A stretch of 64,000 nucleotides of DNA from Halobacterium hubeiense. GTDB taxonomy: Archaea > Halobacteriota > Halobacteria > Halobacteriales > Halobacteriaceae. Below the pieces are notes generated by a model that was given only the letters and a program-made list of their open reading frames with translations, was not told where the DNA came from and made no database searches. The DNA lies in NCBI RefSeq assembly GCF_001488575.1, contig NZ_LN831302.1, positions 1,612,001-1,676,000 on the forward strand, given 5' to 3'. The position numbers were made by a program, and so were the translations under genes. Numbering within the stretch: position 1 is the first letter of the stretch; each line of letters begins with the position of its first letter. This document shows positions 9,461 to 43,683 of the stretch, in pieces.

Positions 9461-10507
9461 ATGTCCAAGAACGCCCGCGAACAAGCGGTGCTCGGCGCGG
9501 TCCGCGAGCGCCGCGAGAAGGTCAACGCCGCTATCGACGAGGACCTCCCGGCGCAGCGCCCCGAGCGCCTCTACGAGGCGGCGCGCTACCTCCTGGAAGC
9601 CGGCGGCAAGCGGCTCCGGCCGGCGGTCCTGCTGTTGACCGCGGAGGCGCTGGCGGACGTCGAACCCGGGAGCACGGACTACCGGGAGTTCCCCGACCTG
9701 ACGGGCGGCGACGTGGACGTGATGTCGGCGGCGGTCTCCATCGAGGTCATCCAGTCGTTCACGCTCATCCACGACGACATCATGGACGACGACGACCTCC
9801 GGCGCGGCGTGCCCGCGGTCCACCGCGAGTACGACACGGAGACGGCGATTCTCGCGGGCGACACGCTCTACTCGAAGGCGTTCGAAATCATGCTCCAGAC
9901 GGGCGCGCCGCCCGAGCGCGGCATGGGCGCGATGCAGACGCTCGCGGAGACCTGCACCCACATCTGCGAGGGACAGGCCCTCGACGTCGACTTCGAGACG
10001 CGAACCGACGTCCTCCCCGACGAGTACATGGAGATGGTCGAACTGAAGACCGCGGTGCTGTACGCCGCGGCGGCGTCGATTCCCGCGGTCCTGCTGGGCG
10101 CCGACGACGACACCGTCGAGGCGCTGTACGACTACGGCGTCAAGGCCGGGCAGGCGTTCCAGATTCACGACGACGTCCTCGACCTCACGGTCCCCTCCGA
10201 ACAGCTGGGCAAGCAACGCGGCTCGGACCTCGTCGAGGGCAAGAAGACCGTTATCAGCCTGCACGCGGCCGAACACGGCGTCGACGTCGAGGACCTGCTG
10301 GACGCCGACGACCCCGACGAGGTCACCGACGCCGACGTCGAGGCCGCCGTCGAACAGCTTCGGGAGGTCGGCAGCATCGAGTACGCCCGCGAGTGCGCGG
10401 ACGAACTCGTCGCCGAGGCCAAGGCGCACCTTGACGTGCTCCCGGACAACGAGGCACACCACCGCCTCGAACAGGTCGCGGACTACCTCGTCGAGCGCGG
10501 CTACTGA
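9461..10507 (+). CDS. idsA: Polyprenyl diphosphate synthase (geranylgeranyl/farnesyl diphosphate synthase)
   Basis: 348 residues, trans-isoprenyl diphosphate synthase. It condenses isopentenyl diphosphate with allylic diphosphates to make the C15-C20 chains of archaeal lipids. First Asp-rich motif: IHDDIMDDDDLRRG near residues 103-116; second: IHDDVLDLT near 235; substrate-binding GGKRLRPAVLLLTAEAL near residue 48. The product chain length cannot be told by eye. It completes the order mvk-ipk-RNase J-idsA. A perfect long hairpin starts 6 bases after its stop. Confidence 0.95.
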   Translation: MSKNAREQAVLGAVRERREKVNAAIDEDLPAQRPERLYEAARYLLEAGGKRLRPAVLLLTAEALADVEPGSTDYREFPDLTGGDVDVMSAAVSIEVIQSFTLIHDDIMDDDDLRRGVPAVHREYDTETAILAGDTLYSKAFEIMLQTGAPPERGMGAMQTLAETCTHICEGQALDVDFETRTDVLPDEYMEMVELKTAVLYAAAASIPAVLLGADDDTVEALYDYGVKAGQAFQIHDDVLDLTVPSEQLGKQRGSDLVEGKKTVISLHAAEHGVDVEDLLDADDPDEVTDADVEAAVEQLREVGSIEYARECADELVAEAKAHLDVLPDNEAHHRLEQVADYLVERGY

Positions 10508-10508
10508 C

Positions 10509-10680
10509 GTACCTTTTTTGCGCGAGCGGTTCGCCGAAGGCGAACCGCTCGCGCAAAAAATCTACGCTAAAAAAGACCGCTCGCCGTCGGCGAGCGGTGG
10601 TCACGCGAGCGTCAGCAAGCGTGGCGTCGTCAGCGCGCAGGGTTGACGGAAAACCGCGCGGCTTCGCCGCGCGTATGCTC
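10509..10680. repeat. Composite intergenic hairpin element, copy A
   Basis: Three perfect hairpins in series after idsA: 22-bp stem 10514-10535/10539-10560 (loop GAA; arms end in T6 and A6), 10-bp stem 10576-10585/10589-10598 (loop GTC), and 8-bp stem 10655-10662/10666-10673 (loop TTC). Copy B at 43559-43683 shares the GTACC-poly-T head, the 12-base CTACGCTAAAAA joint and the last 26 bases apart from one base. Copy A is longer by about 47 bases in the middle. Confidence 0.85.
10514..10560. terminator. Perfect 22-bp hairpin with T6/A6 ends, likely terminator
   Basis: The left arm 10514-10535 and the right arm 10539-10560 are exactly complementary with a 3-base loop. The T run is met after the idsA stop, fitting archaeal U-rich termination; the symmetrical A run would serve the opposite strand too. 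Confidence 0.6.
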
Positions 10681-41037: not shown

Positions 41038-41289
41038 ATGAATCCGAAATCCTTCACCGAGCAACTCGACGCGCCGGCGCGGCGCTTCGACTACGGCGAC
41101 GAAACCGTCCTCGTCGCGGACCTCGGGGTCAGCGACGACGCGGTCACCATCGACGTCGTCGACGAGACGGTCATCCTCGTCGTCGAGGCCGACGACGAGA
41201 CCCGCCAGCACGAGTTCGACGTGCCCGCGGGCACGGTCGCGAAAGCGCTTATCAACAACGGCGTCGTCACCGTCGAGGTGGAACGATGA
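41038..41289 (+). CDS. Hsp20-like mini-protein
   Basis: 83 residues. After [20 protein letters not shown] the pattern [20 protein letters not shown] then [20 protein letters not shown] and TVEVER copies the second half of an alpha-crystallin domain (strand pair, buried aromatic/Phe turn, NGVxTV end). The usual full domain is about 90-100 residues with further strands, so this is either minimal or divergent. It overlaps cdc48 by 4 bases (ATGA), suggesting a co-chaperone or substrate-feeding partner. The functional link is inference. Confidence 0.7.
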
Positions 41290-43559
41290 AACTCACGGTC
41301 AAGCCGCTCAAGCAGAAGGACGCGGGCCGTGGACTGGCCGCCATCGACCGCGCGGCGATGGACGAACTCGACCTCGAGAACGGCGACTACGTCGTCCTCA
41401 GCAGCGATCAGGGTCGCGCCGTCGCCCGCGTCTGGCCGGGCTACCCCGAGGACGAGGGCGAGGGCATCGTCCGCATCGACGGCCGCCTCCGTCAGGAGGC
41501 CGAAGTCGGCATCGACGACAACGTCGCCGTCGAACCCGCCGACATCAAGCCCGCGACCGCCGTCACGGTCGCGCTCCCGCAGAACCTCCGCGTTCGCGGC
41601 GACATCACGCCGATGGTGCGCGACCGCCTGAGCGGCCGCCCCGTCACCACCGGGCAGACCATCCCCATCTCCTTCGGTTTCGGCGGGATGAGCACGGTCT
41701 CCGGCCAGCAGATTCCCGTCAAAATCGCGGACACGGACCCCGACGGCACGGTCGTCGTGAGCAACGACACCGAGATTCAGGTCTCCGAGCAGCCCGCCGA
41801 GGAAATCGCCGCGGGCGCGCCCGCCGGCGAAGCCGGCGACAGCACGCCGAACGTCGCCTACGAGGACATCGGCGGCCTCGACCGCGAACTCGAACAGGTC
41901 CGGGAGATGATCGAACTCCCGATGCGCCACCCCGAGCTGTTCCAGCAGCTCGGCATCGAACCGCCGAAGGGCGTGCTCCTCCACGGCCCGCCCGGAACGG
42001 GGAAGACGCTCATCGCGAAGGCCGTCGCCAACGAGATCGACGCGCACTTCCAGACGATTTCGGGCCCCGAGATCATGTCGAAGTACTACGGGGAGAGCGA
42101 GGAGAAGCTCCGCGAGGTCTTCGACGAGGCCGAGGAGAACGCTCCCGCCATCGTCTTCATCGACGAGATCGACTCCATCGCGCCCAAGCGCGGCGAGACG
42201 CAGGGTGACGTCGAGCGCCGCGTCGTCGCCCAGCTCCTCTCGCTGATGGACGGGCTCGAAGAGCGCGGCGACGTCACGGTCATCGCGGCGACCAACCGCG
42301 TGGACGCCATCGACCCCGCGCTCCGCCGCGGCGGCCGCTTCGACCGCGAAATCGAAATCGGCGTCCCCGACAAGGACGGCCGCAAGGAGATTCTCCAGGT
42401 CCACACGCGCGGCATGCCCCTCGCCGAGGAAATCGACATCGACGCGTTCGCCGAATCCACGCACGGCTTCGTCGGCGCGGACATCGAGAGCCTCGCGAAG
42501 GAAGCCGCGATGAACGCGCTCCGGCGCGTCCGCCCGGACATCGACCTCGAAGCCGACGAGATCGACGCCGAACTCCTCGAATCCATCCAGGTCACCGAGG
42601 ACGACTTCAAGGCCGCGCTGAAGGGCATCGAGCCCTCGGCGCTCCGCGAAGTGTTCGTCGAAGTCCCGGACGTCACCTGGGACCAGGTCGGCGGCCTCGA
42701 AGACACCAAAGAGCGCCTCCGCGAGACCATCCAGTGGCCGCTGGACTACCCCGAGGTCTTCGAGTCCATGGACCTCCAGTCCGCGAAGGGCGTGTTGCTG
42801 TACGGTCCGCCGGGCACGGGGAAGACGCTGCTCGCGAAGGCCGTCGCCAACGAGGCCAACTCGAACTTCATCTCCGTGAAGGGCCCCGAACTCCTCAACA
42901 AGTACGTCGGGGAGTCCGAGAAGGGCGTCCGCGAGGTCTTCGAGAAGGCGCGCGCGAACGCCCCCACGGTGGTGTTCTTCGACGAGATCGACTCCATCGC
43001 CGGCGAACGCGGCTCCAACATGGGCGACTCCGGCGTCGGCGAACGCGTCGTCAGCCAGCTCCTCACGGAACTGGACGGCATCGAGGAACTGGAGGACGTG
43101 GTGGTCGTCGCGACGACGAACCGCCCCGACCTCATCGACAGCGCCTTGCTCCGTCCGGGCCGCCTGGACCGCCACGTCCACGTCCCCGTCCCGGACGAGG
43201 ACGCACGCCGCGCCATCCTCGACGTCCACACGCGCAACAAGCCGCTGGCCGACGACGTCGACCTCGACTACCTCGCCAGCGAGACCGCGAACTTCGTCGG
43301 CGCGGACATCGAAGCGCTCGTCCGCGAAGCCACGATGAACGCCACCCGCGAGTTCATCAACTCCGTGGACCCCGAGGAAGCCATCGAATCCGTCGGCAAC
43401 GTCCGCATCACCGCCGAACACTTCGACGAAGCGCTCACGGACATCACGCCCAGCGTCGACGAAGACGTCCGCGAGCAGTACGAGGAACTCGAAGAGAAAT
43501 TCGAGAAGGCAGCCACCCCCGAGGAAGAAGAACGCACCACCCCCGGGGCGTTCCAATAG
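41286..43559 (+). CDS. cdc48: Cdc48/p97-type AAA+ ATPase (VAT family)
   Basis: 757 residues. It unfolds proteins for the archaeal proteasome. N-terminal double-psi barrel ([20 protein letters not shown]), D1 with Walker A GPPGTGKT near residue 233 and Walker B FIDEID near 290, D2 with GPPGTGKT near 507 and FFDEID near 564, arginine-finger regions intact. C-terminus ends in acidic [12 protein letters not shown]. It overlaps an Hsp20-like gene and is followed by repeat copy B after 2 bases. Confidence 0.96.
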
Positions 43560-43683
43560 TACCTTTTTGCTGCGGAGGGTCGCCTGCGGCGACCCCCGCT
43601 TGCAAAAAGCTACGCTAAAAACTCCCCGCTCGCTCACTTCGTTCGCTCGCGGTGAAACGCGCGGCTCCGCCGCGCGTATGCTC
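43559..43683. repeat. Composite intergenic hairpin element, copy B
   Basis: Starts right after the cdc48 stop with GTACC and T5. Hairpin 1: arms 43563-43584/43588-43609 with small internal loop and bulge. Joint CTACGCTAAAAA at 43610-43621. The middle has a direct repeat CGCTCGC in place of copy A's second hairpin. Hairpin 3: 43658-43665/43669-43676 (loop TCC). The last 26 bases match copy A apart from one base. A T run after the cdc48 stop suits termination. Confidence 0.85.

Follow-up and report, generated by a model that had tools for sequence, protein, structure and literature searches.

A haloarchaeal family of palindromic, structure-conserved repeats at gene 3' ends, seen from two copies in Halobacterium hubeiense

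REP/BIME repeats are extragenic palindromes with a conserved short flank and an imperfect stem that are moved, with RAYT, as folded single-stranded DNA. The repeat family described here resembles them, but the presence of Y1_Tnp, the superfamily to which their transposases belong, is no guide to where its copies occur. Within haloarchaea, the PATEs of Haloquadratum walsbyi are, like the present element, short, non-coding and heterogeneous, have palindromes near their ends and serve as targets of nested repeats; PATEs are reported to make no target duplication and to have termini related to IS605 (PMC3119063). What sets the present element apart from PATEs is the duplication of gene ends in its flanks, the pairing of its end triplets, its equal runs of T and A and its adjacency to stop codons. 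The SMRs of the same organism are also similar, being about 110 bp long and transposase-free with a mobilization that the source paper leaves unexplained, but they are described as bounded by terminal inverted repeats and as lacking target duplication, and SMR-A are found inserted in other elements (PMC3119063). SPRITE of Streptococcus pneumoniae is likewise an interspersed repeat with a terminator-like sequence; it is bacterial, and the comparison is one of description (PMC10969869). PATEs, SMRs and SPRITE are the closest described kinds. A survey of the open-access literature found no description of the motif or of such a palindromic haloarchaeal repeat family, an absence that does not amount to proof of novelty.

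The window is a stretch of 64,000 nt of Halobacterium hubeiense DNA in which copy A occupies positions 10509-10680 and copy B positions 43559-43683. Their parts are given below. The stop codons were placed from the open reading frames and the sequence, with gene names taken from the sequence-only reading; the other parts were read from the sequence, together with an inverted-repeat scan for hairpin 1 of copy A.

10505-10507, plus strand: TGA stop codon of an idsA-type polyprenyl synthase open reading frame (9461-10507)
10509-10519, plus strand: head of copy A, with N1N2N3 = GTA followed by CC (GTACC, 10509-10513) and a T6 tract (10514-10519)
10520-10554, plus strand: hairpin 1 of copy A, with perfect 16-bp arms and a GAA triloop
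10555-10574, plus strand: A6 (10555-10560), linker TCTACGCT (10561-10568) and A6 (10569-10574) of copy A
10575-10680, plus strand: downstream part of copy A, with hairpin 2 (10576-10598), a variable middle, hairpin 3 (10655-10673) and TATGCTC (10674-10680)
43557-43559, plus strand: TAG stop codon of a cdc48-type AAA ATPase open reading frame (41286-43559)
43559-43568, plus strand: head of copy B, GTACC (43559-43563) and a T5 tract (43564-43568)
43569-43603, plus strand: hairpin 1 of copy B, whose arms have mismatches or an internal loop, with a TGC loop
43604-43621, plus strand: A5 (43604-43608), linker GCTACGCT (43609-43616) and A5 (43617-43621) of copy B
43622-43683, plus strand: downstream part of copy B, with hairpin 2 (approximately 43624-43652), hairpin 3 (43658-43676) and TATGCTC (43677-43683)

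Copy A begins 1 nt past the idsA-type TGA stop codon, and GTACC of copy B opens with the G of the overlapping cdc48-type TAG stop codon. No short-range inverted repeat found in the window is longer than hairpin 1 of copy A. Both A-runs of copy A have the length of its T6 tract, and the head triplet GTA is paired with the linker bases TAC within the helix that characterizes the family. The joint CTACGCTAAAAA is identical in the two copies and their last 26 nt differ at one position, in the loop (TTC/TCC). With one mismatch allowed, the window gave 2 matches against 0.13 expected. Direct reading thus bears out the layout first noted for the pair, namely a GTACC head, a T-run, a hairpin, an A-run, an exact joint and a 26-nt end, and the judgment that the copies are more than two separate terminators, with their order conserved and their length not. 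As a small correction, the head, T-run, A-run and linker are joined in one extended helix and are not separate modules. No family in Rfam (Rfam 15) matched at the gathering score; matches were found only far below it.

The two copies belong to a large family. In the H. hubeiense genome, CTACGCTAAAA occurs 17 times as compared with once for a reversed control, and there are at least 17 exact-core copies, A and B among them. Of the 13 genomes of the genus, 12 contain AAAKCTACGCTAAAA, as do 5 of the 7 genera of the family; the control had 0 matches. When the linker was relaxed to any eight bases, the general architecture gave 18 matches in the same genome (control, 0) and was found in 182 of 242 haloarchaeal genomes, spread over 67 of the 74 genera, with next to no matches for the control; the genomes and copies are related by phylogeny, and such counts are not counts of independent events. 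A scan of named genomes recovered Halobacterium, Haloarcula, Halococcus, Natrialba, Natronococcus, Natrinema, Halorientalis, Haladaptatus and others, with scattered matches in unrelated bacteria treated as chance and left out. One large genus (g10) is almost without copies while its relatives are copy-rich, a contrast that may help in finding an associated gene. The sequence-only reading had named a lack of further copies in the genome as the outcome that would overturn it; copies are abundant and that objection fails. Two terminators that are similar by chance are ruled out by the copy number and the controls.

The repeating unit may be written as N1N2N3-CC-Tn-hairpin 1-An-X8-An; two additional hairpins and ATGCT often come after it. 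Main-family copies have GTA as N1N2N3 and KCTACGCT as the linker X8. The lengths of the runs agree with each other (T4/A4/A4, T5/A5/A5, T6/A6/A6): the T-run equals the first A-run in 150 of 157 copies, the two A-runs are equal in 92% and the T-run equals the second A-run in 90%. The observation of CGA with GCTCGGCC and GGA with GCTCCGCC led to the prediction of reverse complementarity between N1N2N3 and X3X4X5. A first count over loci already collected found this rule obeyed in 83% of copies outside the main family (shuffle mean 28%, maximum 44%). All 27 newly fetched copies were fully paired; these had been chosen by their linker or as tandem arrays with the left ends unseen, and tandem neighbors are not independent. 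A cleaned count of 209 distinct copies, in which the same 27 are included, had 52 of 58 non-main copies fully paired, where 2000 shuffles gave a mean of 17 and a maximum of 28. The rule spans 28 variant linkers and applies to 25 of 30 distinct triplet-linker pairs. Base X2, which lies opposite C4, is C in 194 of 209 copies and forms a conserved C.C mismatch. A G.A mismatch at N2-X4 in 20 copies means that the pairing of the triplets is not absolute. Judged from the sequences, the core is under structural constraint, as reflected in the paired ends, the matched run lengths and the C.C mismatch. The downstream "post" module lies near a core in 58 of 64 cases, a sample biased toward loci chosen for having a core; it therefore seems to be part of the element, and its existence as an independent unit is disfavored to the extent that this sampling allows.

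At ten orthologous sites the mean identity of hairpin 1 is 0.65, compared with 0.89 for 150 nt of left flank and 0.58 between unrelated sites; at the EF-2 site it is 0.47 against 0.94 for the flank. The EF-2 and TFS-type hairpins fall below the identity of unrelated sites, the thermosome-type hairpin is nearly unchanged, and recurrent classes of hairpin swap between species at one site. By these comparisons, hairpin 1 turns over faster than the flanking genes yet stays self-complementary. The hairpins are near-perfect Watson-Crick helices with few internal mismatches and no excess of G-T over A-C, as found with a detector that favors perfect arms. Triloops of the GNA/TNC type close 106 of 175 hairpins near cores as compared with 71 of 633 elsewhere. 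Folding is predicted to be more stable for the minus strand in 306 of 323 distinct hairpins with RNA parameters and in 303 of 323 with DNA parameters, and this advantage holds on average in every common hairpin class; the hairpin, triloop and fold counts are all drawn from related sequences. An RNA structure acting in the 3'-UTR on the mRNA strand is unsupported, since the minus strand folds better.

Some copies contain further repeats. Hairpin 1 at eight loci (L003, L007, L016, L061, L067, L075, L084 and L117) has a second double-hairpin module (TGCTCACGG-hairpin-CGTTCGCACGGCCAGCG-hairpin) nested within it, and this module distinguishes the copies L063 and L075, which come from one gene in two species of Haloarcula. 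At L177, which follows the cdc48 stop codon, and L368, which lies upstream of a gene end, another double-hairpin module splits the linker after CTACGC, apparently with ACGC repeated (two genomes). The nested modules may be closer to SMRs. Some Natrialbaceae copies (L068, L072 and L107), inspected by eye, seem to be enclosed by longer, imperfect inverted repeats, as though they were part of a larger element.

In 92 of 148 main copies and 15 of 45 others, a stop codon falls in the interval from -1 to +5 nt relative to N1, where random positions give 1.9% and 1.3%, respectively; these values were scored on open frames of at least 100 aa and not on curated genes. The T-tract thus lies just 3' of a stop codon in approximately 60% of main-family copies. 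In Haloferax volcanii, T stretches terminate efficiently (95%) (PMC7237163), and together with this placement a terminator role for the T-tracts is likely but unproven. A core occurs at the EF-2 stop codon in G000, G013 and G018 and also in G036, a genome from another family, and the EF-2 position is common to Halobacterium, Halorientalis (L117) and Haloarcula (L140). Outside the genus, orthologous positions are only partly conserved, and no core was present at the cdc48 stop codon in 20 genomes read outside the family. Among other copies that follow a cdc48 stop codon, L187 and L398 have a similar architecture with linkers CGTTCATG and CTTTCATG-like and may represent a more remote branch of the family, and in L170 and L171 (two species) the head and an A-run remain but hairpin 1 is gone, making them possible decay products.

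Comparison of related genomes reveals gain or loss of cores. At the L003 site, the 3' end of a minus-strand gene, a core is found in five species (G000, G010, G014, G016 and G008) with about 30 nt of the gene end on both sides of it, and the site is empty in four species (G015, G013, G009 and G012), which have one uninterrupted gene end. A second, variant core (GCACC with TCTGCACC) is present there in G016 and is the only one in G018, in both cases with a 44-nt duplication. The L222 site has two tandem cores in G014 and core remnants in G009 and G015; the corresponding flank in G000, G010, G017, G016, G007, G008 and G011 had no core. Direct repeats with a score of at least 20 flank 11 of 134 main copies and 22 of 62 others, the latter a set whose share is raised by tandem arrays fetched on purpose (33 of 196 overall, control 1 of 782). 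The duplicated sequence is the 3' end of the neighboring gene, 21-139 nt in length, and its left copy usually ends 0-9 nt before N1. Most copies have no detectable flanking duplication. MITEs have terminal inverted repeats matching an autonomous transposon and a target duplication of fixed length; the element has short inverted ends (N1-3/X3-5 and the T/A runs) and duplications of variable length, and the search for a parent transposon in this comparison covered PF01797. The gain of cores with duplicated flanks makes copying or insertion of the element likely. At L338, L352 and L354 the left repeat copy is itself preceded by a full or degenerate core, which makes tandem duplication an alternative to target duplication. 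At L010, L015 and L255, tRNA 3' ends are repeated around or beside cores in direct and partly inverted orientation.

Several explanations may be weighed against these data. A non-mobile terminator or 3'-UTR structure inherited vertically, with apparent movement due to differential loss and stems altered by gene conversion among copies, would fit the adjacency to stop codons, the positions shared across Halobacterium species and in some cases, such as EF-2, across families, and the activity of T-stretch terminators in Haloferax. It does not account well for flanking duplications that are absent from empty sites, for tandem copies and patchy occupancy, or for better folding of the minus strand when the plus strand is the mRNA strand in the stop-adjacent copies that were scored; it is rather unlikely. 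A PATE-type, transposase-free derivative of IS200/IS605, in which Y1 (TnpA) would move single-stranded DNA and the linker-triplet pairing would be guide-target recognition, is improbable. The near-end palindromes without coding capacity, the heterogeneous copies and the nested repeats do resemble Haloquadratum PATEs and SMRs (PMC3119063), short end sequences covary, folding is strand-biased and the H. hubeiense genome has 4 Y1_Tnp genes. PATEs and IS605 make no target duplication, unlike the flanks described here, and Y1_Tnp shows no positive association with the element: by a hand count in which every genome absent from the match list was taken as negative, it is present in 46 of the 60 genomes that lack the element and in 119 of the 182 that have it, and three genomes without a match (G016, G011 and G008) have 19, 16 and 13 core matches. 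Mobilization by IS200/605 was rejected since the presence of the transposase does not follow the element.

Stable hairpins may also promote template switching or slippage, such that perfected palindromes, matched runs and duplicated flanks would be mutational by-products with no selected function. Near-perfect Watson-Crick stems with no G-T excess, the triloop preference near cores and the repeats of tRNA ends, direct and inverted, beside L010 and L015 would agree with such a process, but the conserved head and linker and the adjacency to stop codons would not, and the C.C mismatch is retained in nearly all copies even though correction of this kind would remove it. This origin is quite improbable. 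Least probable of all is a site like attC, recombined by a tyrosine recombinase as a folded bottom strand with paired end triplets, an unpaired spacer and a variable stem. The general architecture, conservation of structure over sequence, bottom-strand preference and location after stop codons are all alike. Nevertheless, attC sites keep their core triplets, whereas the end triplets here vary freely and the attC triplets are not kept. Neither cassette arrays nor an integrase were noticed in the loci that were read, and the text of a survey of 6718 archaeal genomes has no words beginning with "Halobact" or "euryarch" (PMC9668308).

The explanation preferred here, to which a probability of about one half may be assigned, is that copies A and B belong to a haloarchaea-wide, non-coding, structure-conserved palindromic and non-autonomous element that provides T-tract terminators and is copied by a putative activity acting in trans. 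With one Tn tract on the plus strand and two on the minus strand, the element may terminate transcription in both directions, and this would account for the persistence of copies directly at stop codons. Copies would spread or replace one another through a putative trans-acting recombination or copying activity, one that may recognize the folded structure, more likely that of the bottom strand, and not the sequence of the stem. Two points temper this explanation: the repeated flanks could instead reflect a tandem duplication that included both the element and a gene end, with later loss of one core, and patchy occupancy can also arise by loss, with G015 and G009 keeping remnants at L222. The sequence-only reading had offered a mobile element, a family of 3'-end signals, and a recombination or structural site. 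Both the association with 3' ends and the gain or loss with flanking duplication are supported, so a mobile element and a 3'-end signal are compatible readings; a mobilizing enzyme and terminator action are unproven. A more specific and rather unlikely proposal is an undescribed class of mobile element whose ends are read through the pairing of end triplet and linker triplet, and which inserts at gene 3' ends with a long, variable target duplication and brings a terminator with it.

The family sits at the stop codons of housekeeping genes, including idsA, cdc48 and EF-2 as well as thermosome and TFS genes, the last two recognized by their C-terminal sequences. Such placement, in most haloarchaeal genera, would bear on the mapping and annotation of transcript ends in these archaea. 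With the rule that links the end triplet to the linker, there is a simple way to find all copies and to seek the protein that reads it. As a whole, the family offers a testable case of an element that keeps its structure as its sequence turns over, and of the ways in which terminators may be gained.
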